The position numbers and the translations under genes are program-made. The notes under the pieces are model-generated. The model saw only the letters and a list, made by a program, of their open reading frames with translations, did not search any database and was not told the origin of the DNA. Below, piece after piece: positions 9,395 to 35,791 of a stretch of DNA of 64,000 bases. This DNA is from Acidovorax sp. NCPPB 4044 (GTDB taxonomy: Bacteria; Pseudomonadota; Gammaproteobacteria; Burkholderiales; Burkholderiaceae_C). The DNA lies in NCBI RefSeq assembly GCF_028069655.1, contig NZ_JAMCOS010000001.1, positions 2,324,001 through 2,388,000 on the forward strand, read 5' to 3'. The stretch's first letter is position 1, and each line of letters starts with the position of its first letter.

Positions 9395-9405
9395 TTCTTC
9401 GCTCC

Positions 9406-9430
9406 ATCGTTGAACAGTGGGCGCAACGAT
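9406..9430. promoter_or_regulatory. candidate AmpR/LysR operator between beta-lactamase and regulator
   Basis: ATCGTTG (9406-9412) and CAACGAT (9424-9430) form a perfect 7-bp inverted repeat with an 11-bp spacer, the spacing expected of LysR-type half sites. It lies 12 bp upstream of the beta-lactamase start and about 70 bp from the regulator start. Confidence 0.55.
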
Positions 9431-9500
9431 ATCGGGGCATGGCGAGCGTGACCATCGACAATAATCGCCGCCTTCCCCAAGAAAAACTCATGCCTTCACC

Positions 9501-12769: not shown

Positions 12770-13894
12770 TCAGATGCCCGCGGCGTGATCCAGAAAAACC
12801 CGGGCGCGGCGCGGTGTGACCACCAGCGTTTCACCCTCTTTGAAACCCTCTTCCCGGAACTGCTGCGCAGGGATCTGCGCTTCGATCAGGGCGTCGGGTT
12901 CTGCATTGTCCGCTGGTTTGTGGTCGGCGTCGGGGATAAGTTCCAGCCGCGCGATGGGCCCCACCACGATGGCGCGCGAGAGCTGCGCGACGATGCCGCG
13001 CGGCCGGCCATCGGCATCCACGCCCTGCCCCGGCGAATAGCGCTGTACATCGAGGTCGTGCGGGCGCACGTAGGCGAAGGCATTGGCGTTCTGGGCCGAT
13101 GCATGCTCTGGCGAGTCGATGGCCATGCCTTCGACGTGTACCAGGCCTTCGTGGGCGCGCCCGCGGAACAGGTTCACGTCGCCCAGGAATCCATAGACGA
13201 AAGGGCTGGCCGGCTGGTCCCAGACCTCCTGCGGAGAGCCGCTCTGCTCGATGCGGCCCTGGTTGATCACCACCACGCGGTCGGCCACTTCAAGGGCTTC
13301 TTCCTGGTCATGCGTCACGAAGATCGAGGTCACGTGCAGTTCGTCGTGCAGGCGGCGCAGCCAGCGGCGCAGTTCCTTGCGCACCTTGGCGTCGAGCGCG
13401 CCAAAGGGCTCGTCGAGCAGCAGCACCTTGGGTTCCACGGCCAGCGCGCGCGCCAGCGCGATGCGCTGGCGCTGCCCGCCCGAGAGCTGCGACGGGTACC
13501 GGTCGGCGAGCCAGTCGAGCTGCACCAGCTTGAGCAGTTCGGTCACCTTCTGGCGGATCTGCGCGTCCGAAGGGCGCTCGCCGCGCGGCTTGACGCGCAG
13601 GCCGAAGGCCACGTTTTCGAACACCGTCATGTGGCGGAACAGCGCGTAGTGCTGGAACACGAAGCCCACGCCGCGGTCGCGCACGTGCACATCGGTGGTG
13701 TCTTCTCCCGAGAAATGGATGCTGCCGGTGTCCGGCGCTTCCAGGCCAGCGATGATGCGCAGCAGCGTGGTCTTGCCGCAGCCGGAAGGGCCGAGCAGCG
13801 CGATGAGTTCGCCGGACTGGATGTCCAGGCTCACGTCGCGCAGCGCCTGGAAATTGCCGAACTGCTTGCTGATGTTGCGGATTTCGATGCTCAT
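12770..13894 (-). CDS. cysA: sulfate/thiosulfate ABC transporter ATP-binding protein
   Basis: 374 residues. The ATPase domain has Walker [10 protein letters not shown], the Q-loop ([12 protein letters not shown]), signature [16 protein letters not shown], Walker [13 protein letters not shown] and the H-loop THDQEEA. The C-terminal TOBE-like regulatory domain (about 240-374) is typical of CysA. It powers sulfate and thiosulfate import with CysT, CysW and Sbp. It is last of the transport genes, 18 bp after cysW. Confidence 0.96.
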
Positions 13895-13912
13895 GTCTTT
13901 CCCTGTGCTCGT

Positions 13913-14848
13913 TCAGCGGGGTGCGGGGGCGGCAGTGGCGGCCGCAGCGGTGGGCCGCTCCGGGGGCAGGTTGGCGGCGGCCTTGCGCTCCTGTTCGTTG
14001 CGCCACTCCGCGAAGGTCTTGATCACCAGCGTGACCAGCGCCAGGAGGGCCAGCAGCGAGGCGGCGGCGAAGGCCGCGACCGACTGGTACTCGTTGTAGA
14101 GGATCTCCACGTGCAGCGGAATCGTGTTGGTCTGCCCGCGGATATGGCCAGACACCACCGAGACGGCGCCGAATTCGCCCATGGCGCGGGCATTGCACAG
14201 GATCACGCCGTACAGCAGGCCCCACTTGATGTTGGGCAGCGTCACGTGCCAGAAGGTCTGCCAGCCGCTTGCGCCGAGAACGATCGCAGCCTGTTCCTCG
14301 TCGCTGCCCTGCGCCTGCATCAGGGGAATCAGCTCGCGTGCGATGAACGGGAAGGTCACGAACACGGTGGCCAGCACGATGCCCGGGATCGCGAAGATGA
14401 TCTTGATGTCGTGCTCGGCCAGCCAGGGCCCGAGCCAGCCGTGGGCACCGAACATCAGCACGTAGACCAGGCCCGCCACCACCGGGGAGACGGAGAACGG
14501 CAGGTCCACCAGCGTGGTGAGGAAGGCCTTGCCGCGGAACTCGTACTTGGCGATGGCCCAGGCCGCCGCCACCCCGAACACGAGGTTGAGCGGAACGGCA
14601 ATGGCCGCGGTTATGAGCGTAAGGCGGATCGCCGACCACGCATCGGGCTCGCGCAGCGCATTCAGGTACGCGCCGAAACCCTTGCTCAGCGCTTCGGTGA
14701 ACACGGCCGCCAGGGGCAGCACGAGGAACAGCAGCAGGAAGGCGAGCGCGATGCCGATCAGCAGCCAGCGCACCCACGCGGCCTCCGTGGTGCCCGCCTG
14801 CGCTCGGCGCACGGGCTGCCGGGAGGGAGAGGAAGGACTACCGCTCAT
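13913..14848 (-). CDS. cysW: sulfate ABC transporter permease
   Basis: 311 residues of the BPD transport permease family with six membrane helices. The EAA coupling loop is visible ([21 protein letters not shown]). The C-terminal tail is Ala/Pro-rich and probably unstructured. Its start overlaps the cysT stop (ATGA, 14845-14848), so the two are translationally coupled. With CysT it forms the sulfate channel energised by CysA. Confidence 0.96.
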
Positions 14849-15732
14849 GCCGGGGCTCCCGCGTGGCGGCGCTGCCAGGCCTGCAGCGCATTGATGACGA
14901 ACAGCAGCACGAACGAGATCACCAGCATCACCACGGCCACGGCCGTCGCGCCTGCATAGTCGTACTGCTCCAGCTTGCCGATGATGATGAGCGGCGTGAT
15001 CTCCGAAATCATGGGCATGTTGCCCGCGATGAAGATCACCGACCCGTACTCACCCACCGCGCGGGCGAAAGCCATGGCGAAGCCCGTGAGCAGCGCGGGC
15101 GTGATGGAGGGCAGGATGACCTTGGCGAAGATCTGCCAGCGCGTCGCGCCCAGGCTGGTGGCGGCTTCCTCCAGTTCCTTCTCGGCGTCTTCCAGCACGG
15201 GCTGCACGGTGCGCACCACGAACGGCAGGCCGATGAAGATGAGCGCGATCACCACGCCTGCGGGCTTGAACGCGAGCTGGATGCCCAGCGGTTCGAGGTA
15301 TTGCCCCACCCAGCCGTTGCCCGCGAGCAGCGCGGTGAGGGAGATGCCGGCCACCGCCGTGGGCAGGGCGAACGGCAGATCGACCAGTGCGTCCACGATC
15401 TTCTTGCCGGGAAACTGGTAGCGAACGAGCACCCAGGCGATGAGCAGCCCGAACACGAGGTTCACGAGCGCGGCCAGGAACGAGGCGCCGAAGGTCAGCC
15501 GGTACGAGGCCAGCACGCGTGGTGCGCTGATCGCCACCCAGAACTGGTCCCAGGTCATCGAGAAGGTCTTGAGGATGAGCGCCGACAGCGGGATGAGGAC
15601 GATGATGCTCAGGTAGAAAAGCGTGTAGCCCAGCGTGAGCCCGAAGCCGGGCAGCACCCGCCTGGCACCGCGGCGGGCGCGTGTCGCCGCCTGCGGCGCA
15701 GCGGCGCCCAGGGAAGAGGTGGCCGCGCCCAT
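14845..15732 (-). CDS. cysT: sulfate ABC transporter permease
   Basis: 295 residues, six membrane helices, with the coupling loop [21 protein letters not shown]. It is the partner of CysW in the sulfate/thiosulfate importer. An N-terminal Ala-rich cytoplasmic tail precedes the first helix ([20 protein letters not shown]). It starts 3 bp after the sbp stop and overlaps the cysW start by 4 bp, so all four transport genes form one transcription unit. Confidence 0.96.
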
Positions 15733-15735
15733 GGA

Positions 15736-16749
15736 TCAGCGGCCGCCAGGGGTGTAGAGCTTGTCGAACTGGCCGCCGTCGTTGAAGTGGACCTTCTGCG
15801 CCTCGCCCAGCGAACCGAAGTACTTCGCCACCGTGAACTGCTTGAGCGGCTTGAAGACGTCGGCGTGCTTCTTCAGCACGGCCTCCGAGCGGGGGCGCAG
15901 GGCATGCTGCGCGGCGATTTCCTGGGCTTCATCGGAATACAGGTAGTCGAGGTAGGCCTTGGCCAGTTCCGCCGTTCCCTTCTTGGCCACCGTGCGCTCC
16001 ACCACGGCCACGGGGTTCTCGGCCACGATGCTCACCGACGGATAGATGGCATCGACCTTGCCCTTGCCGAATTCTCGGTCGATGGAGAGCACTTCGGATT
16101 CGAAGGTGATCAGCACGTCGCCCGTGTTGCGCTGCAGGAAGATGCTGGTGGCATCGCGCCCGCCCTTGCCCAGCACGGGCACGTTCTTGTAGAGCTTGCT
16201 GACGAATTCGGCGGCCTGGGCCTCCGTGCCGCCCTTCTCGCGCACATAGCCCCAGGCAGCCAGGTACGCGTAGCGGCCGTTGCCGCCGGTCTTGGGGTTC
16301 ACGACCACCACCTGCACGCCCGGCTTGACCAGGTCGTCCCAGTCCTTGATGTTCTTCGGATTGCCGTTGCGCACCAGGAACAGCATCGTGGAGGTGGTGG
16401 GCGAAGCGTCGTTCGGAAACTTCTTGGCCCAGTCCTTCGCGACCACGCCGTTGCTTGCCAGGAAGTCGATGTCGGTCGTGGTGTTGAAGGTGACCACGTC
16501 GGCAGCCAGGCCGTCGTTGACGGCGCGCGCCTGGGCGCTGGAGCCGCCATGGGCCTGATCGATCTTGATGTCCTTGCCGGTCGTCTTCTTGTAGTGGGCG
16601 ATGAAGGCAGGGTTGTAGTCCTTGTAGAACTCGCGGGCCACGTCGTAGGACACGTTGAGCAGCGTGGCGGTCTGCGCCGAAGCCGTTGCAGCCGTGGCGG
16701 CCAGGGCCAGGACGGCCAGGAAGGTCTTGAGTCGTGTCCGGGAATTCAT
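15736..16749 (-). CDS. sbp: periplasmic sulfate-binding protein
   Basis: 337 residues. A Sec signal peptide (KTFLAVLALAATAATASAQ) is followed by the Sbp/CysP fold, with the family segments LLNVSYDVAREFYKDYN, HGGSSAQARAV (oxyanion binding) and GGNGRYAYLAAWGY. It captures sulfate for CysTWA. I chose the ATG at 16747-16749 (MNSRTRLK), which follows GGGTGA; an ATG 11 codons upstream has no ribosome binding site. It is the first gene of the sulfate operon, and its upstream region carries a 14-bp palindrome containing a 10-mer also found upstream of the encapsulin operon. Confidence 0.94.
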   Translation of the reverse strand: MNSRTRLKTFLAVLALAATAATASAQTATLLNVSYDVAREFYKDYNPAFIAHYKKTTGKDIKIDQAHGGSSAQARAVNDGLAADVVTFNTTTDIDFLASNGVVAKDWAKKFPNDASPTTSTMLFLVRNGNPKNIKDWDDLVKPGVQVVVVNPKTGGNGRYAYLAAWGYVREKGGTEAQAAEFVSKLYKNVPVLGKGGRDATSIFLQRNTGDVLITFESEVLSIDREFGKGKVDAIYPSVSIVAENPVAVVERTVAKKGTAELAKAYLDYLYSDEAQEIAAQHALRPRSEAVLKKHADVFKPLKQFTVAKYFGSLGEAQKVHFNDGGQFDKLYTPGGR

Positions 16750-16810
16750 GTGTGAGTCACCCACGGTTAGCTGCGAATGCAACGAATTGTGGGTGCCGGC
16801 GCTTCAAACT

Positions 16811-16827
16811 CAAAAGAATAGATTCTT
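16811..16827 (-). promoter_or_regulatory. palindrome upstream of sbp, candidate sulfur-control site
   Basis: AAGAAT-AG-ATTCTT (16814-16827) is a near-perfect palindrome 65 bp upstream of the sbp start in an AT-rich stretch. It includes CAAAAGAATA (16811-16820), repeated exactly at 32591-32600 upstream of the rhodanese/encapsulin operon. A CysB-type regulator is the obvious candidate, but no binding consensus was tested. Confidence 0.45.
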
Positions 16828-17587: not shown

Positions 17588-17781
17588 GGACGGCCTCCTC
17601 CGGCGACGCGGACAGGAGAGCGTGAACAGCGCGGGCGCCGTGGGAGGGAAAACGGTGCGTGGGCCATGGGCGATTCCTCTGCAGTCGGTGCAAACCGATT
17701 CTGCGAGGCGGCCTATAAAACCCAAACGACTATATTTTTCTGAATTAATGGGAAAAAGATCTTTAGAGGAGCGCTGCCAAG

Positions 17782-20067: not shown

Positions 20068-23223
<3,156 letters not shown>

Positions 23224-23241
23224 GGGACAGGCTCCTGGGTG

Positions 23242-24390
23242 TCAGCGGATCTGGTTGAGGAGCGTGGCGGCCTGCGTGACCACGCGGTCACCCGCGGCGA
23301 GGCCGGAGGTCACCGCCACGGAAGACCCGTCGAGCGGCTCCACCGTCACCGGGCGCGGCGCGAAGTTCTCCGGCCCCGTCTTCACCCAGACGATGGATTG
23401 GTTGGCGGCGTTCCTGAGCACCGATGCACTCGGCACGCGCAGGCCCTGCACGGTGGCCGCGCCCTGCACGAACACCGCCACGGGCTGGCCGACCGCCAGG
23501 CGCGCGACCCGCGTGCCTGAAGCGCTGAACAGCAGCGGCAACGCCTGCTCGCGCAGGCTGCGCCCCGCGCCGAGGAACGTGAGCGGAATGCGCTCGCCGT
23601 CCACGGCCAAGGAAGCTGCAGCCACGTCGCGCGCCACGGCCGCGTCGTAGGCCAAGGCCTCGATGCGCAGCCGCTGCGGGTCCACCACCTCGAACACCAG
23701 TTCGCGGGCATCCACCACCTGCCCCGCCACGGCGTTGCTCGAAGCGATGACGCCATCCACGGGAGCCACCAGGGCGTCGCGCCCCGACAGGCCCGAGCCC
23801 AGCGCCGAGATGCGCGCGGCCAGGCTCGCGGATTCGCTCTCGGCCGCCTCGATGTCCTTGCGGGGCACGGTCTCGCTCAGCTCCCGCAGGCGCGCCAGGC
23901 GCCTTTCGGCCAGTGTCCGCGCGGCGCGCAGTTCGGCGACCTGGGCCATCTGGCCGGAACGCTCGATCGATCCCTGGGCGGGTTGCACATGGGCCAGCAC
24001 CTCGCCGCGGCGAACGGCCTGCCCGATCTGCGGCAGGCCCCTCGGACCCGGCTCCAGGCGCCCGGCCACCATGGCCTGCACCTTGCCGCCCGCGTTCGGG
24101 TCCATCACCACCCGGCCCGCCAGCTCGTGCGCGCGCGCCAGCGCCTCTTGCGCCACGGGCTGCGTGCGCACCTGGAGCTGGCGCTGCGCCGGTTTGGGCA
24201 GGAAGACGCTGCCGTCGGGCAGACGGCTCGGCCCGTTGCCCGGCGCCGCGGGCGGCGCTTCGCCATGGTCATGGCCCGGCCCGGCATGGGCCGGCAGCAC
24301 CAAGGCCCAGGCCAGGGCCGCTGCACACATGCCGGCGAGGGCCCGCCGCGCTGCCAGGGGCAGGTTTTGCATCGGACGGCGCGCGGTCAT
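23242..24390 (-). CDS. czcB: RND efflux periplasmic adaptor (CzcB/CusB-like)
   Basis: 382 residues. A signal region and hydrophobic segment (ALAGMCAAALAWALVLPAHAG) is followed by a short His-containing start (GPGHDHGEAP), then lipoyl and beta-barrel halves around a helical hairpin (about residues 120-200). It bridges the inner-membrane pump and the outer-membrane channel. The start at 24388-24390 overlaps the upstream stop as ATGA, so the two are translationally coupled. A longer upstream frame is rejected because of this overlap. Confidence 0.88.
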   Translation of the reverse strand: MTARRPMQNLPLAARRALAGMCAAALAWALVLPAHAGPGHDHGEAPPAAPGNGPSRLPDGSVFLPKPAQRQLQVRTQPVAQEALARAHELAGRVVMDPNAGGKVQAMVAGRLEPGPRGLPQIGQAVRRGEVLAHVQPAQGSIERSGQMAQVAELRAARTLAERRLARLRELSETVPRKDIEAAESESASLAARISALGSGLSGRDALVAPVDGVIASSNAVAGQVVDARELVFEVVDPQRLRIEALAYDAAVARDVAAASLAVDGERIPLTFLGAGRSLREQALPLLFSASGTRVARLAVGQPVAVFVQGAATVQGLRVPSASVLRNAANQSIVWVKTGPENFAPRPVTVEPLDGSSVAVTSGLAAGDRVVTQAATLLNQIR

Positions 24391-24965
24391 GCGGCACCTC
24401 CGATCGCACTCCGGCGGCCCGCGCCCGCACGGCGGCGCAGCGCCACGGCAGCCAGCACAAGCGCCAGCACGGCACCGGCGATCCAGGGTGCCCGGGTGCG
24501 CCACGGGCTGCCGGCGGATTCAGGTCCGCTTTCTGCGTGGCCATGGATATCGAGCGTGCCCGCCAGCACATCGTTGGCGGCGCCCACGGCCACCACCGCG
24601 GCCACGGCGGCTTCGCCTTCGGGCAGCGGCTCGGGCAGCAGCGCTTCGAAACGGCCATCGCCACCGCTCGGGCTCAAGGCCACCGGGCGGCCGTTGATTT
24701 CGAGATCGAGTCGTGCGCCCTCGGCCGGCCGGTTGTCGGCCGCGTGGTCCAAATACAGCGACAAGCGTTGCCCGTCGAGCACGCCCACCAGCTCGAATGC
24801 ATCCGATACCGCCGTGAAGCGGGGCAGCATGCCGGCACCGGCGGCCACCGGCGCTTCGTCATCGTGGCCTTCGTGCGCCACCGACCAGGCCGGCAGCAGC
24901 GCCAGCACGACCGCCAGGCTCCGGGCCCGGGTCAACCAAAGAGAGTTCGTCATTGTGTTTGCCAT
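24387..24965 (-). CDS. membrane-anchored periplasmic protein of the czc operon
   Basis: 192 residues: signal peptide (LAVVLALLPAWSVA), then HEGHDDE, a His/Asp cluster that could bind metal, a beta-rich periplasmic domain and one C-terminal membrane helix (PWIAGAVLALVLAAVAL) with an Arg-rich cytoplasmic tail. Similar genes sit between the CzcC and CzcB genes in some heavy-metal efflux operons, but the role is not established. The start could be the ATG at 24963-24965 or the one four codons later; neither has a strong ribosome binding site. Confidence 0.75.
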   Translation of the reverse strand: MANTMTNSLWLTRARSLAVVLALLPAWSVAHEGHDDEAPVAAGAGMLPRFTAVSDAFELVGVLDGQRLSLYLDHAADNRPAEGARLDLEINGRPVALSPSGGDGRFEALLPEPLPEGEAAVAAVVAVGAANDVLAGTLDIHGHAESGPESAGSPWRTRAPWIAGAVLALVLAAVALRRRAGAGRRSAIGGAA

Positions 24966-24984
24966 GCAAGTGGAGGGCGGGCGC

Positions 24985-26331
24985 TCAGCGCGCGCCCGAA
25001 AGGGGGGAAGAAAGGGGCAGGCCGCTGTCGGACGGAAGAAAGCCCAGCGCCTGGTTCAGCGCGGAAACGGCCGCGTCGCGGTCCAGGCGCGCGCGCAGGG
25101 CCTCGCGCCCTGCATCGGCGGCTTCCTGCTCGATGCGCAGGCGTGTGGGGAGATCGGTTTCGCCCAGCGCGAAGGACTTCTGCAGGAAGCCGCGCGTTGC
25201 CGCGGCCAGTGCTTCCCGCTCCCGCGCGGCGTCCCACTGGGCCTGCGCGGCCGCATGGCGCGCGTAGGCCGCGGCGATGTCCGCGCGCACACGGGCGTGG
25301 TCGCGTTCGGATTGCGCTTGCGCTTCGGTGGCGTCGGCCAGCGCCGCAGCGAGCCGTGCCTCGTGCCGGCTGCCGCCGCCGAAAGGAATGCGCACGGCCA
25401 CGGTCAGGCTCTGCTGGTACGCCTCGCCGCGGGCGCCGCGGTCGCGCGTGGTGGCGATGGAGAGTTCCGGGTTGGCGCGCTGTTGTACCGCAGTGAGTTC
25501 GGCAGTGCGTCGGGCCACTTCCTCCTTCTGCCGCACTTCCGCCAGCGCGGGGTGCGCGTCCACGGCATTGCCAGCCGCCGTACCGGCAGGCAAAGGCTCC
25601 ACCATGCCCGGCGCGTCCAGCGGCAGGCCTTGCAGCTCCATGGCCGCCAGGGTACCCGGCGCGAGAGCCTCCAGCCCGAGGCGGGCCACCTGCAGCGCGC
25701 CTTCGGCTTCCGCCACGGCAGCCGTGGCAGAGGCCACTGTGCCCATGGCCTGGTGCCGGTCCACCAGCGCCAGGTCGCCGGCCTGCACACGCCGCGCCAC
25801 GTCGGAGGCCAGATCCCGGGCGCTTTTCAGGCGGTCCCGGGCCCACTCCAGACCGGCACGCGCACGCAGCCACTGCCACCACGCCTCGCGCACCGAGCCG
25901 GCCGTGCGCAGCCGCGCAGCCTCCAGGCGGCCGCGCTCCGCGCTCTCCTGCGCATCGGCCAGCCGCGCGGTGCGCCCTCGCTCACCCGGCAACCAGAGCG
26001 GCAGCGCCACTCCCGCCTCGTACTCCCGGGCGCCTTCCCGGCCATTGAAACGGTCGGTCTTGGCCGACAGGGAAACGGCCGGCGCCTCCGCGATCCACTG
26101 CCCTGCAGCCTGCCGGCGCGACGCGGCAGCGCGCAACCGATCGCCAGCCGCCAACGCCTCGGGCTGCGCCGCCCAGGCGGCCTCGAAAAGGCGTGACAGC
26201 GGCGTGCCGGCGGGCGCCTGCGCTTTGATTTCCAGGGCGCTCGGCGGCGCCACCATCTGTGCCGGAACCATGCCGGCCGACAACCCAGCCAGGGCGCCAC
26301 ACAGGCCCCAGCGAACCATATTTCGGTGCAT
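24985..26331 (-). CDS. czcC: outer-membrane efflux channel (CzcC/TolC family)
   Basis: 448 residues from the ATG at 26329-26331, preceded by GGAGAGAAAT; in-frame ATGs also exist at 26344-26346 and 26317-26319. A signal peptide (GLCGALAGLSAGMVPAQ) leads into two repeats of long Ala/Glu/Arg-rich helices, the TolC outer-membrane efflux fold. With CzcB and CzcA it forms the tripartite metal exporter. It is 183 bp after czcI and 20 bp before the next gene. Confidence 0.88.
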   Translation of the reverse strand: MHRNMVRWGLCGALAGLSAGMVPAQMVAPPSALEIKAQAPAGTPLSRLFEAAWAAQPEALAAGDRLRAAASRRQAAGQWIAEAPAVSLSAKTDRFNGREGAREYEAGVALPLWLPGERGRTARLADAQESAERGRLEAARLRTAGSVREAWWQWLRARAGLEWARDRLKSARDLASDVARRVQAGDLALVDRHQAMGTVASATAAVAEAEGALQVARLGLEALAPGTLAAMELQGLPLDAPGMVEPLPAGTAAGNAVDAHPALAEVRQKEEVARRTAELTAVQQRANPELSIATTRDRGARGEAYQQSLTVAVRIPFGGGSRHEARLAAALADATEAQAQSERDHARVRADIAAAYARHAAAQAQWDAAREREALAAATRGFLQKSFALGETDLPTRLRIEQEAADAGREALRARLDRDAAVSALNQALGFLPSDSGLPLSSPLSGAR

Positions 26332-26513
26332 CCGATTTCTCTCCATCCAAGCCATGGGGGAAGTGATGGATCGGAGAGGCAGCACGGCCCCATCCCCCGG
26401 GCCGCAGCTCCCCTGTTCAGGGGCGCTGCGGCGCAGGACCGCCGGCCATGCACGCAGAGCGCGCCAGGCCGGCCGTCGTCAGAAGGGATGCTGGGCGAAG
26501 AACGCCTCGCCGA

Positions 26514-26934: not shown

Positions 26935-27489
26935 TCAGACCTTGGCGTGCCGGCGCACCCAGTCGGCGTACTTTTCCACCCAGGTCTGAACGAACTGCCG
27001 GCTGGCTTCGCCGATGTTGCCATCGTCGTCGAAAAGATTGTCCTTGGCCTGGATGAATGCCTCGGGCTGGCCCAGCGTCGGCACGTCGAGGTAGGCCAGC
27101 ACATTGCGAAGATGCTGCTGCGCCAGCGCGGTGCCGATGGCGCCGATCGACACGCCCAGCACGCCCGCGGGCTTGCCGCTCCACACGCTCTGGCCGTAGG
27201 GGCGGGAGGCGTGGTCGATCGCGTTCTTCAGCACGCCGGGGATGGAGCGGTTGTATTCCGGGGTGACGAACAGCAGCCCCTGCGCTTTGGCAACCTCGGA
27301 CTTGAGCCGCAGCACGGCAGCGTTCTGGTGGCCGTCGTCGTCCTGGTTGTAGAGCGGCAGGTCGTCGATGCGCACCTGCACCAGCGTGAAATCGGGAGGC
27401 ACCAGCTTGACCAGCGCGTCGGCCAGGCGGCGGTTGAAGGAATCCTTGCGCAGACTGCCCACGAGGACGGCGATAGTGAATTGGCTCAT
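26935..27489 (-). CDS. NADPH-dependent FMN reductase
   Basis: 184 residues of the flavodoxin-like NADPH:FMN reductase (ChrR/SsuE-like) family. It shows VGSLRKDSFNRRLADAL, the phosphate loop of the flavin, and VTPEYNRSIPGVLKNAIDHASRP, the family signature. It reduces quinones, flavins or chromate with NAD(P)H. The start at 27487-27489 has AAAGGAGC. Possible jobs here are oxidative-stress defence or supplying reduced flavin to the SsuD-like monooxygenase at 44-45 kb; the second is speculation from shared theme only. Confidence 0.88.
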   Translation of the reverse strand: MSQFTIAVLVGSLRKDSFNRRLADALVKLVPPDFTLVQVRIDDLPLYNQDDDGHQNAAVLRLKSEVAKAQGLLFVTPEYNRSIPGVLKNAIDHASRPYGQSVWSGKPAGVLGVSIGAIGTALAQQHLRNVLAYLDVPTLGQPEAFIQAKDNLFDDDGNIGEASRQFVQTWVEKYADWVRRHAKV

Positions 27490-27634
27490 GAAAGCTCCTT
27501 TGCTTTGGAAGGTCGGCTGAAGAGAAGGTCGGCATGCATGCCCCTGCGGCACGCGACCCCACGCGGCATGATCGCGCCCGGCCATACCGGCGGCTGTCAG
27601 GCAAGCGCGCATTCGCGCCAATGGCCCGGAACGG

Positions 27635-27672
27635 AAAAGCCCCCCGGCACCTGCGGCGCCGGGGGGCTTTCG
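27635..27672 (-). terminator. strong terminator at the end of the encapsulin operon
   Basis: AAAGCCCCCCGGC pairs with GCCGGGGGGCTTT around a 9-base loop; on the minus strand the stem ends in CTTTT. It lies about 45 bp beyond the cysteine desulfurase stop. Confidence 0.85.
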
Positions 27673-27715
27673 TGGATCGATGGCCGGGCCACGCGATTTG
27701 CGCGGCCGGCCGGTT

Positions 27716-29740
27716 TCAGGGCCTGCGCGCGGAGAGCCGCTCCACCACGGCGACGAGGCGATCGATTTCCTCGAACGTGTTGTAGAACGCCAGCGACGGC
27801 CGCACCGTGGCCTCCACGCCGAAGCGGCGCAGGATGGGTTGCGCGCAATGGTGGCCCGTGCGCACGGCGATCCCTTCCTGGTTGAGCGCGTCGCCCACCT
27901 CGGCCGTCGTATGGCCTGCCAGCACGAACGACATCACGCTCGCCTTGTCGGCCGCGGTGCCGATGAGGCGGACGCCGCGCACGCTGCCCAGCGCACGCAT
28001 GCCGTACTCCAGCAGTTCGTGCTCGTAGCGCGCAATGGCCTCGATGCCGACACGGCCGACGTAATCGATGGCCGCGCCCAGGCCCACGGCATCGGCGATG
28101 TTTCCGGTGCCGGCCTCGAAGGTGTTGGGCAGCGGCTGGTACACCGTCTTCTCGAAGGTGACATCGGCGATCATGTTGCCGCCGCCCTGCCAGGGCGGCA
28201 TGTCTTCCAGCACCTCGCGCTTGCCCCACAGCGCGCCGGTGCCCGTGGGCCCGAACACCTTGTGGCCCGAGAAGACGAAGAAGTCCGCGCCGATGTCCTG
28301 GACGTCCACGCGCATGTGCGACACGGACTGCGCCCCGTCCACCAGCGCCCGGGCCCCGGCCCGGTGCGCCATCTCCACGATCTGCTTGACCGGCACCACC
28401 GTGCCGAGCGCATTGGACACCTGGGTCACCGCGACGATCCTGGTGCGCGAATTCAGCAGCTTCTGGTACTCGTCCAGCCGCACCTGCCCGGTGTCGTCCA
28501 CGGGGATCACGCGCAGCTTCGCTCCCTTGGCGGCAGCCAGCTGCTGCCACGGAACGATGTTGGCGTGGTGCTCCAGATGGCTCACGATGATCTCGTCGCC
28601 CTCGCCCACGTGCTGCACGCCCCAGCTCTTCGCCACGAGGTTGATGGCCTCCGTCGTGCCCCGCACGAAGATCACCTCGTTCACATCCGGCGCGTTCAGG
28701 AAGCGCCGCACGCGCTCGCGGGCGCCTTCGTAGGCGTCCGTGGCGCGCGCGGCCAGTTCATGGGCCGCGCGGTGGATGTTGGAGTTCTCGTGCTCGTAGA
28801 AGTGGCTGATGCGCTCGATGACCGAACGCGGCTTGTGCGTGGTGGCCGCGTTGTCCAGCCACGCCAGGGGCCGGCCGTTCACGCGCTCGGCAAGGATCGG
28901 AAAATCCCGCCGCACCGCATGCACGTCGAAGGCGCTGCGCGCGGACGATCCGATCGTGGGAGCGGCACCTGAGGCCGCCCCTCGGCCCGAGGCCGCGCCG
29001 CTGTCGGTGCCCTGCCCCTGCCGCGAGGGGTGGAGCGGCGTCACGTAGCCATCGGGCAGCGTGACCGCGTCCACGAAGTAGAAGCGCGGCTCGGCCGAAG
29101 GCAGCGCTCCCGCGGCGGCGGAACCCGGGACCGGCGCCGCGCGGGGCGCCTCGGGCACGGCGAACGGCAGGCGGGCCAGCGCGTCCAGCCCGGACGGCTC
29201 CCGAGGGCCAGCGGCAGCAGGAGCGCCAGGCTTCGGAAGGTCGCTGAAATAGAAGGGCGACGACAATGCCGAGGCCGGCAATGCAGCACCGCCCGCAGCA
29301 GGCCCGGCAGGCGCCACGGCCGGAGGAACGCCGGTCACCGCACTGCCGATGCGCGGCTCGTAGGCCGGCAAGGCGCCGAGCGCGTGGTCGGGTACGCCGT
29401 TGCCCGCCTGCGCATGCGGCAGCAGGCCCGGCACGCGGTTGGCAAGCGACGCCAGGGGCGTCGGCGACGACGGCAGCAGATTGCTGCCCGGAATCTGGCC
29501 CAGCGGCACGGGCGTGCCCGGGATGCCCGGTGCCAGCCCCGCAGGGCTGGCGAGCGGCGAGCCGGCAGGCGCCACGTTCACGGGGGCCTGAACGCCCGGA
29601 ACCGAAGCCAGCGCCTGCTGGCCCGGCGCCGCACCGAACAGCGCATTGGCCATGCGCGCGAGCTGCCCGACATCCAGCGGCGACGGCGCACCGTCGGCCA
29701 CACCGGGCAAGGAAGGGGTCGTCGAGGAGGAAATCGCCAT
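27716..29740 (-). CDS. encapsulin cargo cysteine desulfurase (SufS-like) with long N-terminal loading domain
   Basis: 674 residues. Residues about 271-674 are a SufS-type cysteine desulfurase: LDNAATTHKP, the PLP lysine in SGHK (Lys494), NAGTGNI-like AGTGNIAD, and active Cys632 in HHCAQP. It removes sulfur from cysteine as a persulfide, releasing alanine. The first 270 residues are Pro/Ala/Gly-rich and probably disordered, with short conserved-looking islands: LARMANALFG (27-36), FYFSDLPKPG (163-172) and FYFVDAVTLPDG (220-231). This matches the cargo-loading extension of Family 2A encapsulin desulfurases. The start at 29738-29740 is 17 bp after the shell stop, so shell and cargo are coexpressed. 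The frame runs open far upstream, but that part lies over the shell gene and is not coding. Confidence 0.94.
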   Translation of the reverse strand: MAISSSTTPSLPGVADGAPSPLDVGQLARMANALFGAAPGQQALASVPGVQAPVNVAPAGSPLASPAGLAPGIPGTPVPLGQIPGSNLLPSSPTPLASLANRVPGLLPHAQAGNGVPDHALGALPAYEPRIGSAVTGVPPAVAPAGPAAGGAALPASALSSPFYFSDLPKPGAPAAAGPREPSGLDALARLPFAVPEAPRAAPVPGSAAAGALPSAEPRFYFVDAVTLPDGYVTPLHPSRQGQGTDSGAASGRGAASGAAPTIGSSARSAFDVHAVRRDFPILAERVNGRPLAWLDNAATTHKPRSVIERISHFYEHENSNIHRAAHELAARATDAYEGARERVRRFLNAPDVNEVIFVRGTTEAINLVAKSWGVQHVGEGDEIIVSHLEHHANIVPWQQLAAAKGAKLRVIPVDDTGQVRLDEYQKLLNSRTRIVAVTQVSNALGTVVPVKQIVEMAHRAGARALVDGAQSVSHMRVDVQDIGADFFVFSGHKVFGPTGTGALWGKREVLEDMPPWQGGGNMIADVTFEKTVYQPLPNTFEAGTGNIADAVGLGAAIDYVGRVGIEAIARYEHELLEYGMRALGSVRGVRLIGTAADKASVMSFVLAGHTTAEVGDALNQEGIAVRTGHHCAQPILRRFGVEATVRPSLAFYNTFEEIDRLVAVVERLSARRP

Positions 29741-29757
29741 GGGTGCGCCCCCGCCGC

Positions 29758-30690
29758 TCACTTGTAGGTGTCCGGATAGTCGTGGTAGCGGTTCACTTCC
29801 ACATCGTCGAGCACCGCCAGCGCGTCGGGCGTGAGCACGGCGAGCGAGCAGTAGAGGGAGATGAGGTAGGAAGCGATCGCATGGTTGTTGATGCCCATGA
29901 AGCGCACCGACAGGCCGGGGCTCTGCTCGCCCGGCAGGCCCGGCTGGAAGAGGCCCACCACGCCCTGGCGGCGGTCGCCCACGCGCAGCAGCAGGATCTT
30001 GCTCTTGCCGTCGGCCACGGGCACCTTGTCCGAGGGAATCAGCGGGATGCCGCGCCACGTGATGAACTGCGAGCCGAACAGGCTCACGGTGGGCGGCGGC
30101 GTGCCGCGGCGCGTGGCTTCGCGGCCGAAGGCGGCGATGGCCAGCGGGTGGGTCAGGAAGAAAGCCGGCTCTTTCCAGACCTTGGTGAGCAGTTCGTCGA
30201 GGTCGTCCGGCGTGGGCGCACCCGTGAGCGGGAAGATGCGCTGCTCTTCGGTCACCTGGGCCAGCAGGCCGTAGTCCGGGTTGTTGATGAGCTCGCTCTC
30301 CTGGTTCTCCTTGATGGTCTCGATGGTGAGGCGCAATTGCTCCTTCACCTGGTCGTGCGGGCTGCTGTAGAGGTCGGAGATGCGCGTGTGCACGTCGAGC
30401 ACGGTGGACACTGCGTTCAGGAAGAACTCGCGCGGGTTCTCCTCGTAGTCGACGAAGGTGCGGGGAAGCTGGTTCTCTTCCTGCTTGGCCGTGCAGGTGA
30501 CCTTGATCGACTCGGGGTTCTTGACCCGGTTCAGGCGGTAGATGCCTGCTTCCACCGGCACCCATTGCAGCAGGTGCGTGAGCCAGCGCGGGCTGATGGT
30601 GGAAAGCTGCGGCGCGGTCTTGGTGGCGTTCGCCAGTTGCCGTGCTGCGTTGTCGCCGAGTGCGGTCGTTCCGCCCAGTGTTGCCGACAT
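29758..30690 (-). CDS. Family 2A encapsulin shell protein (SrpI-like)
   Basis: 310 residues. The sequence matches the SrpI family closely: ARQLANATKT near the N-terminus, VDVHTRISDLYSSPHDQVKE, NPDYGLL, GAPTPDDLDELLTKVWKEPA, LFGSQFITWRG and the C-terminal YCSLAVLTPDALAVLDDVEV. These proteins have the HK97 phage capsid fold and self-assemble into icosahedral shells that hold a cysteine desulfurase. The start has AGGGAG upstream. The gene directly precedes the desulfurase and follows an XRE regulator, a serine acetyltransferase and a rhodanese, which is the known Family 2A neighbourhood. Shell size and pore properties cannot be read here. Confidence 0.95.
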   Translation of the reverse strand: MSATLGGTTALGDNAARQLANATKTAPQLSTISPRWLTHLLQWVPVEAGIYRLNRVKNPESIKVTCTAKQEENQLPRTFVDYEENPREFFLNAVSTVLDVHTRISDLYSSPHDQVKEQLRLTIETIKENQESELINNPDYGLLAQVTEEQRIFPLTGAPTPDDLDELLTKVWKEPAFFLTHPLAIAAFGREATRRGTPPPTVSLFGSQFITWRGIPLIPSDKVPVADGKSKILLLRVGDRRQGVVGLFQPGLPGEQSPGLSVRFMGINNHAIASYLISLYCSLAVLTPDALAVLDDVEVNRYHDYPDTYK

Positions 30691-30760
30691 GTCAAAAACT
30701 CCCTGTGGTTCGTAGCGGTGATGGAAAACCCGCAGAGTGTCCCGGCCTCTACTGTCGCGT

Positions 30761-31033
30761 TCAACATGCTATAGCCGCCAAGCCTGCGTGATCGCCGCGG
30801 CGCGCCTCGGCCAGTTGCTCTCCGCGCCCGAGCAGAGCGGACGCGGGCACGCCCAGCGACGTGGCCAGCTTGGACACCGTGACCAGCGAGGCCACGACCG
30901 CCCCGCGCTCGATCTCCCCGACATACGAGCGGTTGAGATCGGAATGCTCGGCCAGCCGCTCCTGCGACCAGCCCAGCGATTCGCGCGACTGGCGCACGGC
31001 GATGCCGAAGCTCTTGACCAGGTCCGCCGTCAT
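30761..31033 (-). CDS. XRE-family regulator within the encapsulin operon
   Basis: 90 residues with one Cro/C1-type helix-turn-helix: LGWSQERLAEHSDLNRSYVGEIERG (about residues 20-44), and little else. Its ATG overlaps the serine acetyltransferase stop (ATGA, 31030-31033). The 70-bp gap to the shell gene is the longest in the operon after the promoter and could hold a second, XRE-controlled promoter. Related small XRE proteins of the SinR/CysB-neighbour type often control sulfur genes, but the target here is inferred from position only. Confidence 0.85.
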   Translation of the reverse strand: MTADLVKSFGIAVRQSRESLGWSQERLAEHSDLNRSYVGEIERGAVVASLVTVSKLATSLGVPASALLGRGEQLAEARRGDHAGLAAIAC

Positions 31034-31992
31034 GCGCCCGCCCTCCCCGCCGGTTCCTGGGAAGGTGCGCTCTCCCGGGCACTTTCCCGGCCGTTTTCCC
31101 GGGCCGTCGCCTGCGTGATGTGCGCGCCGGCGGGCACGTCATGGGTCACCCAGACATTGCCGCCGATGACGGCACCGCGGCCCAGGGTGACCCGGCCGAG
31201 GATGGTGGCGCCGGCATAGATAACGACGTCGTCCTCCACCCGCGGATGGCGCGCCAGGCCCTTCTGCGGCCGGCCCTCGGCATCGGTGGGGAACCGCTTG
31301 GCGCCCAGCGTCACGGCCTGGTAGAGGCGCACGCGTTCACCGATCACGGCGGTCTCGCCGATCACCACGCCCGTGCCGTGGTCGATGAAGAAGCCGGCGC
31401 CGATGCGTGCGCCGGGATGGATGTCGATGCCCGTCTGCGCATGCGCCAGCTCCGACACCATGCGCGCCAGCAGCGCCAGGCCCAGCCCGTAGAGGATGTG
31501 CGCGAGCCGGTGGTGGATCATCGCCAGTACGCCGGGGTAGCACAGCAGCACCTCGTCCACGCTGCGCGCCGCGGGGTCGCCCCGGTAGGCGGCCAGAACG
31601 TCCGAATCCAGCAGGCGGCGGATGTCCGGCAAGGCCTCGGCGAATGCCCGCGCTGCGCTCAGGGCGGCGGCTTCCCGGTCTTCCGCCTCGGCTGCTGCGC
31701 CCGCATGGCGCGTGCCGTGCCCCAGTTCGAGCGCGATCTGCCCGTGCAAGGTCTGCAGGGCGGCATCGAGCTGGTGGGCCACGAACAGGTCTTCGCTCTC
31801 GGGCCGCAGGTCATGGGGGCCGAGCCGCAGCGGAAACAGCGCGCCCTTGAGCTGCTCCACGATGCGCGCGACCGCATCGCGCGACGGGAATTCACGGCCC
31901 GCAGGCTCCTGTTCGCGGTTCTGGGCTTCGCGCCATTCGCGACGCACAGCATGCAATCGTTGGCCGATGCCGGCAATGTCGAAGGTGGCCAT
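31030..31992 (-). CDS. serine O-acetyltransferase (EpsC-type), encapsulin-linked
   Basis: 320 residues. The N-terminal helical domain (about 1-190) precedes a left-handed beta-helix of hexapeptide repeats with the active-site segment IDIHPGARIGAGFFIDHGTG and VVIGETAVIGERVRLYQAVTLG. It transfers acetyl from acetyl-CoA to serine to give O-acetylserine, the precursor for cysteine. The Ala/Glu/Arg-rich C-terminal tail after AHITQA is longer than usual. Start ATG at 31990-31992. The serine acetyltransferase is a regular partner of Family 2A encapsulins and suggests that cysteine supply and desulfuration are coordinated. Confidence 0.92.
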   Translation of the reverse strand: MATFDIAGIGQRLHAVRREWREAQNREQEPAGREFPSRDAVARIVEQLKGALFPLRLGPHDLRPESEDLFVAHQLDAALQTLHGQIALELGHGTRHAGAAAEAEDREAAALSAARAFAEALPDIRRLLDSDVLAAYRGDPAARSVDEVLLCYPGVLAMIHHRLAHILYGLGLALLARMVSELAHAQTGIDIHPGARIGAGFFIDHGTGVVIGETAVIGERVRLYQAVTLGAKRFPTDAEGRPQKGLARHPRVEDDVVIYAGATILGRVTLGRGAVIGGNVWVTHDVPAGAHITQATARENGRESARESAPSQEPAGRAGA

Positions 31993-32021
31993 GGACAACT
32001 TTCCTCGTGGATGGCCCGTGG

Positions 32022-32504
32022 TCAGTCCTGCACCCAGGGCAGGCCATGGAAGCGCCAGCCGTCGTCGCTGCCGCGGTGCTGCAGCGCGTCCAGTTCTCCC
32101 TCGAAGCCTTCGAGCACATTGAACACGCTGCCAAAGCCTGCCTGCGCCGCTGCCTGAGCGGCCAGCACGGACCGCTTGCCGCTGCGGCACAGCAGCAGCG
32201 CCACGGCGTTGCGTCCGCCGTGTGCGGCCAGCTTGGCCTCCAGCTCTCGCGCGAAGCGCGGATTGCGGGTGAGGGCCGTGCCCGTGGCCCATGGCACATG
32301 CAGCGAACCCGGCACGTGTCCGACGAATTTGCGTTCCTCCGCCGAGCGCACGTCCACCAGCACGGCCTCGCCCCCCTGGTGCAGCCGCCAGGCGACGGGC
32401 GGCGAGACCCCTCCGGCATACGCCAGACCTTCGCGCTGGGCCTGCTCGCGTGCAGTTTCCAGTTCGGTCGGCAGAACAGTTTCGAGGGCAGCGGCGGACG
32501 ACAT
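32022..32504 (-). CDS. single-domain rhodanese of the encapsulin operon
   Basis: 160 residues. The rhodanese domain spans about 40-155, with the active Cys in LLLCRSGKRS, the CRxGxR loop, and conserved LVDVRSAEE and GHVPGSLHVPW. It can carry a persulfide and pass sulfane sulfur between thiols. The start at 32502-32504 has AGGAGAAG at good spacing; a longer frame of 21 codons lacks one. It is the first gene of the operon, 29 bp before the serine acetyltransferase. The likely role is handling sulfur delivered from, or to, the encapsulated desulfurase. Confidence 0.9.
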   Translation of the reverse strand: MSSAAALETVLPTELETAREQAQREGLAYAGGVSPPVAWRLHQGGEAVLVDVRSAEERKFVGHVPGSLHVPWATGTALTRNPRFARELEAKLAAHGGRNAVALLLCRSGKRSVLAAQAAAQAGFGSVFNVLEGFEGELDALQHRGSDDGWRFHGLPWVQD

Positions 32505-32590
32505 GGGGGGCTTCTCCTGAGCGATGGATGGAAGCGGCTTTTTCTCGGAAAGCGCGCTGGCAGCCACTTTAGGCGGCGCCCCACGGAACC

Positions 32591-32600
32591 CAAAAGAATA
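32591..32600 (-). promoter_or_regulatory. 10-mer shared with the sbp promoter region
   Basis: CAAAAGAATA at 32591-32600 lies 87-96 bp upstream of the rhodanese start and is followed by an A/T-rich run (to about 32620). The same 10-mer lies 62-71 bp upstream of sbp in the same orientation. This supports a common regulator, possibly CysB-like. Confidence 0.45.
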
Positions 32601-32666
32601 AAAAATTAAAACTTCAAAACAAAATCATCCATGGCGGGCTGGGGATCGCACGGTGCAGCGCAAAGC

Positions 32667-32704
32667 AAAAGCCGCATGCCGCCCGGAGGCTGCATGCGGC
32701 TTTC
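32667..32704 (-). terminator. terminator after metQ
   Basis: AAAGCCGCATGC (32668-32679) pairs with GCATGCGGCTTT (32692-32703) around 12 bases. It lies 70 bp beyond the metQ stop, on the minus strand, and isolates metNIQ from the encapsulin operon. Confidence 0.8.
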
Positions 32705-32774
32705 TGTGGGGGCAGGCCACGGCCTGCCCGACGCCGGGTTGGCCGGCGAGCAAGCAAAGGGAAGAGAAAGGCGT

Positions 32775-33572
<798 letters not shown>

Positions 33573-33752
33573 GAGGTCACCTTGTCGTATGGGAAAGCGT
33601 GCATCTTAGGTTTCACGCGATACAACCCATAACAATAGGTTTTCATTTCCTTACAACGCACCGGCATAAAAGACCCAGCCAGGCGAGCCGTGGTGTCGGT
33701 CCCCCGGGACACTCACGGCACGCCGCCCGGGCGGCCGGGCGCCCGCGCCGCC

Positions 33753-34418
33753 TCAGCGGTGGCTCAGCCGGCGCACCGCCCAATCGCCCAGGCTCTGCAC
33801 GGCCTGCACGAAGAAGATCAGCACCACCACCACGGCCAGCATGATGTCGGGCAGGAAGCGCTGGTAGCCGTAGCGGATGCCCAGGTCGCCCAGGCCGCCG
33901 CCGCCGATGGCCCCGGCCATGGCCGAATAGCCCGTGAGGCTCACGAAGGTGATGGTCAGGCCTGCTACGATGCCGGGCAGCGCCTCGGGCAACAGCACCT
34001 TCCAGACGATCTGCGAGGTGGTCGCGCCCATGGCCTGCGCGGCCTCGATGAGGCCGTTGTCCACTTCGCGCAGCGAGGCTTCCACCAGCCGCGCCACGAA
34101 GGGGGCCGCGGCGATGGTGAGCGGCACCACGGCGGCCGCCGTGCCGATCGAGGAGCCCGTGATGAGGCGCGTGAACGGGATGATCGCCACCAGCAAGATG
34201 ATGAACGGCGTGGAGCGCACGGCGTTCACGATCCAGCCGACGATCTTGTTGGCGGGGCCGTTCTCCAGCACGCCGCCGCGGTCGGTCAGGCGCAGGAACA
34301 CGCCCAGCGGGATGCCGATGAGCGCACCCACGAGGCCCGAGATGCCCACCATCACGAGCGTCTCCCACAGCGAGCTGACGAACAGCTCCAGCATCATTTC
34401 CGAAAAATTCTCGAACAT
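33753..34418 (-). CDS. metI: methionine ABC transporter permease
   Basis: 221 residues with five to six membrane helices. The coupling loop (EAAQAMGATTSQIVWKVLLPEA) and the family end GYQRFLPDIML are visible. It forms the channel of the methionine importer with MetN and MetQ. Its start is 4 bp after the metN stop. Confidence 0.95.
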   Translation of the reverse strand: MFENFSEMMLELFVSSLWETLVMVGISGLVGALIGIPLGVFLRLTDRGGVLENGPANKIVGWIVNAVRSTPFIILLVAIIPFTRLITGSSIGTAAAVVPLTIAAAPFVARLVEASLREVDNGLIEAAQAMGATTSQIVWKVLLPEALPGIVAGLTITFVSLTGYSAMAGAIGGGGLGDLGIRYGYQRFLPDIMLAVVVVLIFFVQAVQSLGDWAVRRLSHR

Positions 34419-34422
34419 CGCC

Positions 34423-35478
34423 TCAGCCTTCCACAGTCACTTCTTCCACCACCACGCCCTCGGCGCGCAACTGCGCGACGGCCTGGCCCAGCCGGGCGCT
34501 TTCGCCGCTGGCATACACCGCCAGCGAGCCGAAGGTCTGGCCCTGGATCTCGTCGATCTGCCCGTGCAGGATGGACAGGTCCAGCCCGTGCTCGCGGATC
34601 AGGCGCGAGAGGATGGGCTGGTAGGCGCGCTCGCCCGCGTACGACAGGCGCAGCAGCCGGCCCACGCCGCCCTGCCCCTGCGCGATGAGTTGCGCGGCGA
34701 GGTGGCGCACGTGGTCCAGCACGCTCTCGGGCAGGTCCTGCGGCACGATCTCGTCGATCAGGCTCCGGGTAATGGGCTGCTGCGGGCGCGTGAATACCTC
34801 CAGCACGGGGCCCTGCTCCACGATGCGGCCCGCGTCGATGACGGCCACGCGGTCGGCCACCTGCTTGATGACCTGCATCTGGTGGGTGATGAGCACCACG
34901 GTGAGGCCCAGCTCCCGGTTCACCTGCCGCAGCAGCGCCAGGATGGAGCGCGTGGTCTCGGGGTCGAGCGCGGAGGTGGCCTCGTCGGAGAGCAGCACCT
35001 TGGGGCGGCTGGCGAGCGCGCGCGCGATGCCCACACGCTGCTTCTGCCCGCCGCTGATCTGCGCGGGATAGCGGGTGGCCAGGTGCGACAGGCCCACCAG
35101 TTCGAGCAGCGGGTTCACGCGCTCGCGGATGGCGGCGCGGTCCATGCCGGCCAGCTCCAGCGGCAGCGCCGCGTTGTCGAAGACCGTGCGCGACGAGAGC
35201 AGGTTGAAGTGCTGGAACACCATGCCGATGTCGCGCCGCGCCGCGCGCAGGTCGGCATCGCCGAGTTTCGTGAGGTCCCGGCCCGCGACGATGACCTCGC
35301 CGGCCGTGGGCCGGTTCAGCAGGTTGATGACGCGCACGAGCGAACTCTTGCCCGCGCCGCTGCGGCCGATGATGCCGAACACCTCGCCCGGCTGGATGTG
35401 CAGGTCGATGCCCCGCAAGGCTTCCACGGGCCCGGTCGGGCCCTGGTAAATCTGGGTGATACCCCGTAAGTCGATCAT
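34423..35478 (-). CDS. metN: methionine ABC transporter ATP-binding protein
   Basis: 351 residues. Walker [10 protein letters not shown], signature [16 protein letters not shown], Walker [13 protein letters not shown] and H-loop THQMQV are present. The C-terminal regulatory domain (about 270-351), a ferredoxin-like fold that binds methionine and inhibits transport, is also present. Start ATG at 35476-35478 (MIDLRGI). First gene of metNI; no SAM riboswitch or other known element was recognised in its leader. Confidence 0.95.
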
Positions 35479-35791
35479 GGCTGTGCGCTTGGCGCCGCGC
35501 CCGGCTTGGGGTGCGGCGGTTTCTGGAGAAAAGAAGAAAAAAGAAAAAGACGAAGAAAGGTGGGCGGGACGGACGGCGCTGAGCGAAGCGCCGGAAGGCA
35601 ACGCAGCGGGCGCGGGCGCCGCTACCGGTGCCGGAGCGTGGCCCGGGCCGGAGGCCCGACACCGCCGCCGGCGAGTGCGCGACTGTACGGGCTGCACCGG
35701 CCGATGCCAACGAACCAGGGATTGGATGCTAAGACGCCATGGTTATGAGCGTGCGAGCGCGCGGGGCCGGGCCTGCACGCGGATTTTCGTA
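35479..35791. other. leader region of metN
   Basis: About 310 bases without a supportable gene. A purine-rich run (35523-35561, mostly A and G on the plus strand) is the only clear compositional feature. The metN promoter must lie here, but no good -35/-10 pair stands out. Confidence 0.5.

Follow-up and report, generated by a model that had tools for sequence, protein, structure and literature searches.

The five-gene encapsulin locus

The subject of this analysis is a Family 2A encapsulin locus of Acidovorax sp. NCPPB 4044, found in a stretch of 64,000 nucleotides (contig NZ_JAMCOS010000001.1, positions 2,324,001 to 2,388,000), referred to here as the window, the positions of which are used throughout. 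Five minus-strand genes, which occupy positions 32504-27716, encode a rhodanese, a serine acetyltransferase, a small regulator of the XRE family, the shell, and its cysteine desulfurase cargo. The compartment, the cargo, and the acetyltransferase and rhodanese partners are of an already known kind, while the regulation, through the local XRE gene and a conserved element (P2) in the interval between this gene and the shell gene, looks to be the new part. Judging from the comparison of related loci, the shell and cargo are probably switched on through P2 by this dedicated, built-in regulator. A further region, P1, lies upstream of the rhodanese gene. The five genes are as follows:

32022..32504, minus strand: rhodanese (sulfurtransferase); PF00581, 49 bits; CRSGKRS loop recognized by eye
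31030..31992, minus strand: EpsC-type serine O-acetyltransferase; NF041874, 168 bits (cut-off 150)
30761..31033, minus strand: small XRE/Cro-type regulator, controller-protein-like; HTH_3
29758..30690, minus strand: Family 2A encapsulin shell (SrpI-like); NF041162 and PF19307
27716..29740, minus strand: cysteine desulfurase cargo with a long N-terminal extension; NF041166

An earlier note on this DNA had described these five open reading frames as one unit, a Family 2A encapsulin with a desulfurase cargo. All five are present, and so are the ATGA overlap shared by the acetyltransferase and XRE frames, and the 17-bp gap between the shell and the cargo, for which an alternative in-frame start, the GTG at 29761-29759, overlaps the shell stop codon. 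The curated Family 2A models recognize both the shell and the cargo. The profile search that the note had proposed for the 29758-30690 product (310 aa) matches the Family 2A model (NF041162 encap_f2a, 528 bits, cut-off 380) and the SrpI-like domain PF19307 (341 bits), which is the only Pfam domain found in this protein; the cNMP-binding domain, the feature that separates 2B from 2A, is absent. The 2B model is also passed (416 vs. 400 bits), with a best stretch that covers the shell part of the profile (212-450). The nearest solved relatives of the shell by sequence are 8t6r (561 bits), 9ksl, 8wol, and the SrpI structure 6x8m (483 bits). The shell would presumably assemble into an icosahedral cage.

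The cargo matches the curated model NF041166 f2_encap_cargo1 at 908 bits (cut-off 800), and its catalytic residues, Lys494 (SGHK) and Cys632 (GHHC), are intact, as the earlier note had stated. The SufS-like match begins only at residue 275 of 674, in agreement with the extension of about 270 residues reported there. This N-terminal extension is presumably disordered, and contains the motifs LARMANALFG (at 27) and SSPFYFSDLP (at 160), which resemble LARLANEFFS and AASPYYFLDG, given for the SrpI-associated desulfurases in the portion consulted of PMC8049743.

The conservation of the unit was evaluated in the named loci, which are the best 80, by shell identity, of 586 confirmed. The same gene order and strand were found in 70 of these 80 loci, which bears out the grouping of the five genes as one unit. 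Five of the other ten (L018, L042, L076, L078, and L079) lack the XRE gene, which was found in 75 of the 80, one (L072) has no acetyltransferase match, and four (L009, L037, L060, and L070) run into the end of a contig. The median identity to the window is 93% for the shell, a value overstated by the selection on shell identity, 73% for the rhodanese, 72% for the acetyltransferase, 70% for the cargo, and 61% for the XRE protein. The closest shell among these 80 loci is that of Paracidovorax konjaci, which is 99.7% identical. A single SrpI-like match was found in the host genome itself (5.32 Mb), and a shell match in 57 of 299 genomes of the family; two of the four genomes of the same genus, including that of the host, have a shell match and two do not. 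In the 12 shell-bearing genomes outside the order, no XRE gene was found within approximately 1.5 kb of the shell. On the shell tree, the distribution of the XRE gene requires 11 changes, at least seven of them on well-supported branches, in a tree whose bootstrap values had not settled.

The XRE regulator and the P2 element

The XRE protein has 90 amino acids and is small and all-helical in its predicted model, which has a pLDDT of 91.7, falling to 57 in the last ten residues. Its nearest solved relatives are C.AhdI (1e-15) and C.BclI by sequence, and C.BclI and C.AhdI by fold, with TM-scores of 0.86-0.92 by target, so that the modeled structure lies close to these controller (C) proteins of restriction-modification (R-M) systems. 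The residues S23-Q24-E25 (the SQE motif) are kept in 73 of 76 XRE proteins (the window and 75 relatives), and are replaced by SQG or SQD in L051, L060, and L063. Searches with Pfam and the curated models recognized no domain besides the helix-turn-helix (HTH), and no sensor domain. In 15 genomes with an XRE-less locus, the best match to the XRE protein elsewhere reaches 57.6 bits, compared with 146.6 for the window protein itself, the sole reference, and one of the genomes with such a locus (G051) has no XRE match anywhere.

The portions consulted of the literature describe controller proteins as binding DNA centered between the A and the T of TATA (PMC4041747), and as contacting sigma-70 through SQE, activating at low concentrations and repressing at high ones, with classes that differ in their operator box (PMC4824078). 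The same source also places SQE in phage repressors, and records an SQE variant of C.Csp231I that lost DNA binding, for which reason the role of the motif may exceed the contact with sigma.

The features of P2, which lies between the XRE gene and the shell gene, are as follows:

30761..30781, minus strand: P2 operator element TTGGCGGCTATAGCATGTTGA, 21 bp, overlapping the last seven XRE codons, stop included
30759..30764, minus strand: -35-like hexamer TTGAAC, of which TTGA is invariant in the 102 elements from loci with the XRE gene
30736..30741, minus strand: -10-like hexamer GACACT, 17 bp after the -35-like hexamer

The earlier note had guessed at a second control point before the shell and cargo, and the phylogenetic footprint in the XRE-shell interval supports this; the conserved promoter- or operator-like element itself is beyond what had been seen there. 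The footprint was measured in 124 distinct loci in which the shell match is nearly complete, 102 with the XRE gene and 22 without it, the host genome being counted once among the 102. This set leaves out shell matches of less than 280 residues and loci with less than 300 bp upstream, and merges loci that are identical from 100 bp before the shell to 600 bp into it. At up to six mismatches, the P2 element was found in 101 of the 102 loci with the XRE gene, as opposed to none of the 22 without it. At up to five mismatches, 100 loci still have the element, while L062 has seven; the best matches of the XRE-less loci have from seven (three loci) to ten mismatches, which is the background level. In the host genome there is no second copy at up to three mismatches. 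A scan of the 299 family genomes with the 16-mer core found matches in 32, in 30 of them just upstream of the shell gene, while the reversed pattern produced five matches in the same genomes. In the other two genomes (G113 and G271), no gene of the unit was matched significantly in the stretch that holds the hit, and the hit appears fortuitous.

The overlap with the XRE gene might indicate that selection keeps the protein tail LAAIAC, as a thiol or a degron, for example, in which case there would be no P2. In favor of this explanation, AC is the C-terminus of 51 of the 75 XRE proteins, and 16 aligned sequences, which had been chosen for their full tails, do not differ in their last four residues. 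In 62 of the 75 named loci the element does form the last seven XRE codons, stop included, but the isoleucine codon within it is ATA in all 62, compared with 2.3% of the isoleucine codons in the rest of these genes. In the other 13, moreover, similar DNA extends across or beyond the XRE stop codon, and the tail of the protein is gone. The uniform ATA and these 13 loci thus indicate that the element is kept as DNA, and not as protein, and given also the conserved hexamer at a fixed spacing outside the XRE gene, selection on the tail appears very improbable. A role for the C-terminal cysteine of the XRE protein as a thiol sensor was also considered, and was dropped, given that similar DNA is kept out of frame.

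GTTGA is invariant in the column statistics of the P2 elements, which end in the -35-like TTGA. The best NACACT-like hexamer follows TTGAnn at a distance of 17 bp in 79 loci, and 18 bp in 20 (99 of the 102), whereas when the downstream bases were shuffled 200 times, this was the case in 21.7 loci on average, and in 34 at most. The distance between the element and the shell ATG is more variable, at 80-241 bp. Hexamers at a fixed spacing are, as far as the letters can indicate, the geometry of a promoter. If transcription is assumed to start 7 nt after the -10 hexamer, the GGCTATAGC core would be centered, by hand measurement, near -42.5, the position of activators that touch sigma-70.

Some points weigh against this interpretation. 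The P2 hexamers fit the sigma-70 consensus weakly (7/12, by eye), and a consensus promoter scan of 27500-32900 found no sigma-70 promoter, P2 included; such weak hexamers would be expected of an activator-dependent promoter, and would also be compatible with no promoter at all. The SQE motif is weak evidence, given its presence in phage repressors, the loss of DNA binding in the C.Csp231I variant, and the SQG or SQD found instead in three of the 75 relatives. As the P2 element and the XRE gene overlap, the two could be lost in a single deletion, so that their joint absence is not independent evidence.

Long XRE-shell intervals (132-346 bp) were found in L016, L032, L047, L062, and L071. In L032 and L071, the P2 element retains its place at the 3' end of the XRE gene, and its start is 241 bp (L032) and 153 bp (L071) away from the shell; in the other three loci, it is found past the XRE stop codon. 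At L114 (G003:C1:1338677-1339398), the shell gene was matched as two partial, overlapping pieces, and is nevertheless preceded by an XRE match and a P2 element with one mismatch.

The P1 region and the proposed switch

Two features were recognized upstream of the rhodanese gene:

32587..32600, minus strand: P1 upstream element TATTCTTTTGGGTT, a candidate site for a CysB-type activator of sulfur limitation
32566..32571, minus strand: -10-like TAAAGT, letters checked

In the same window, a copy of the upstream element that reads TATTCTTTTGAGTT precedes sbp, the sulfate-binding gene of an sbp-cysTWA-like cluster. The 14-mer pattern derived jointly from these two sites has exact matches in the host genome only at P1 and before sbp (16807-16820), with one further match at one mismatch (17719-17732), while a shorter P1 pattern matched only P1. 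In 79 regions upstream of the rhodanese gene (the window and 78 named loci), a related element is over-represented, the mean best score being 11.7 out of 14, compared with 9.2 for shuffled patterns. At a second sbp-like gene (L165), the element is, by eye, only loosely similar. These similarities suggest that P1 and sbp may share control of the CysB type. A suggestion is as far as this goes, because the pattern was drawn from these two sites, and its matches at up to two mismatches are no more common than those of the control (17 vs. 24); the CysB label at P1, in turn, depends on the similarity to one other promoter.

In many relatives, the region upstream of the rhodanese gene contains a palindrome of 20 bp, TTGRYGGCTATAGCCRYCAA, which matches the P2 element in its left half and center. 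A palindrome was called at 15 or more of the 20 positions, with permuted palindromes as controls. Among the loci with the XRE gene, it was present in 53 of the 73 named ones and in five of the 10 further ones (58/83), compared with one of five and two of nine loci without the gene (3/14; Fisher's test, p 0.0009, kinship not corrected for). The window is outside the 83, L184 was left out for lack of a rhodanese match, and the further loci come from 19 of the 57 shell-bearing genomes of the family, and one of another order. As P1 lies approximately 1.5 kb from the XRE gene, this association is not forced by overlap, unlike that of P2. Among 50 named loci that have the palindrome, it is immediately preceded by a loosely defined -10-type pattern in 35, which is a repressor position, and it follows a TTTTTATTCGTTTG-like upstream element by 37 or 38 nt in 37.

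On the other side of the balance, P1 in the window has no recognizable palindrome (11/20, the chance level), and neither do its closest relatives, L002 and L003, so that feedback at P1 is a claim on the wider group, and not on this genome. In addition, 25 of the 83 relatives with the XRE gene fall below the palindrome threshold, and the XRE-less L018, L188, and L189 still carry the palindrome, which may reflect a recent loss of the XRE gene or another factor that uses the palindrome.

These observations also bear on the possibility that the locus is a single Family 2A operon of the ordinary kind, transcribed from P1, with an XRE protein that is an incidental regulator acting at P1 only, and a P2 element that belongs to some other factor. 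The XRE-less loci, which often have the shell close behind the acetyltransferase and must use P1 or an unseen promoter, are consistent with this arrangement. The half-site and center shared by the P1 palindrome and P2, which both go with the XRE gene, and the uniqueness of P2 in the host genome at up to three mismatches make it improbable.

Taken together, the five genes resemble two nested transcription units more than a single, simple operon. We infer XRE binding, P2 activation, and the response to sulfur from the arrangement of these sites. Sulfur limitation would act on P1, leading to the production of the rhodanese, the serine acetyltransferase, and the XRE protein. A dimer of the latter would then bind the GGCTATAGC core, touch sigma-70 through SQE, and fire P2, with the shell and cargo being made as a separate, second step. 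The cargo would be packaged through its N-terminal extension. As the earlier note had proposed, the acetyltransferase may feed the synthesis of cysteine, from which the packaged desulfurase would remove sulfur that is passed to the rhodanese, and a role of the compartment in sulfur storage is possible. The XRE protein may also repress P1 through the palindrome in many relatives, although not visibly in the window, which would produce a self-limiting switch.

The same sites could serve a repressor at both promoters, with P2 kept silent until some signal inactivates the XRE protein and thereby releases the expression of the shell and cargo. Repression is a common role of small XRE proteins, the P2 operator reaches the -35-like hexamer, and the P1 palindrome lies in the -10/start region, where a repressor would be expected. 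No sensor domain is recognizable in the 90 residues, however, and an operator near -42.5, a weak -10, and the resemblance to controller proteins fit an activator better, with SQE adding little. Repression at both promoters is therefore an unlikely, but serious, alternative to activation at P2.

Activation of this type has known counterparts. The XRE protein shares with C.AhdI, C.BclI, and C.Esp1396I a small XRE fold, a palindromic operator centered on TATA, the SQE motif, and operators placed to activate and repress. Unlike the R-M controllers, it would drive an encapsulin, rather than a restriction enzyme, its candidate operator lies where its own gene ends, and would serve a downstream promoter, and its half-site reads GGC-TATA-GCC, which does not fit the GACT-tat-AGTC of the C.PvuII-like C-box. 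Its neighbors are the acetyltransferase and the shell, and not R-M genes, no genome-wide R-M search having been made. The XRE protein may thus work like a controller protein, but is not classed as one here, because the half-site differs and there are no restriction genes in the unit. That an R-M-type controller was recruited to a nanocompartment, where it would form a two-stage, possibly bistable switch that commits the cell to shell building once a controller threshold is passed, with feedback at P1 in many relatives, is a tentative extension, which we rate at slightly under an even chance.

A second likeness is with the lambda CI protein at PRM, where the activator is bound just upstream of the -35, and represses another promoter. 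The proposed position of the XRE protein and the repression of the other promoter are similar, but there is no lysogeny here, no cleavable domain, and a single gene cluster.

The closest compartment is the SrpI/CyD system of Synechococcus elongatus, which, in the portion consulted of PMC8049743, has the same shell family, a SufS-like desulfurase with a disordered N-terminal domain, two similar motifs, and a link to sulfur, being upregulated on sulfate starvation. The word "regulator" is absent from the main text of that paper, and the portion consulted reports no operator, whereas here the XRE gene and P2 precede the shell. Serine O-acetyltransferases and rhodaneses are the most enriched accessory components of the Family 2A desulfurase operons in a survey (PMC8346489) which, in its consulted text, supplementary figures aside, mentions neither an XRE gene nor a promoter element, both of which are present here.

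A search of the openly licensed literature, with subscription papers outside its scope, found no earlier description that links encapsulins with an XRE-family regulator, and no paper that joins an encapsulin with an R-M controller protein. Nor was any description found, in the accessible literature, of the timing of desulfurase-encapsulin production by a local regulator. The locus thus offers a candidate dedicated regulator, with an operator defined by its sequence, in a widespread set of desulfurase cages. If the proposal is correct, it would tie the assembly of the cage to a threshold decision, offer a way to induce native cages, and extend the logic of controller proteins beyond restriction systems, while without local regulation, the locus would be an ordinary Family 2A operon.

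Boundaries and neighboring genes

Two hairpins bound the five-gene unit:

27635..27671, minus strand: intrinsic terminator 3' of the cargo; 17-pair stem
32667..32704, minus strand: terminator-like hairpin after an upstream MetQ-like gene (named by eye), separating this gene from P1

The fold of the 71 nt at 27620-27690 has an energy of -50.7 kcal/mol (z -5.7), a value reached by none of 200 shuffles, which upholds the terminator that the earlier note had placed after the cargo, although a consensus terminator scan of 27500-32900 did not list it. The only terminator-like site listed by that scan lies inside the acetyltransferase gene, below the shuffle mean. The fold at 32650-32720, after the MetQ-like gene, has a z of -2.7, with 3 of 200 shuffles as good.

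Just upstream of P1 are MetN-, MetI-, and MetQ-like genes (32775-35697, by eye), which, together with the sulfate transport cluster at 12770-16782 (sbp, cysT, cysW, and cysA-like genes, with sbp tested by profile and the rest named by eye), form a sulfur-rich neighborhood. Directly downstream of the cargo terminator is an FMN reductase-like gene (26935-27489, by eye), for which tblastn, at its cut-off, found a match in the same position in seven named loci out of 80 (L002, L003, L006, L011, L025, L029, and L035). The window also contains, by eye from the translations, a heavy-metal-type RND efflux cluster with outer membrane, adaptor, and pump genes (20068-26385), and a beta-lactamase-like gene with a divergent LysR-type neighbor (8477-10397).

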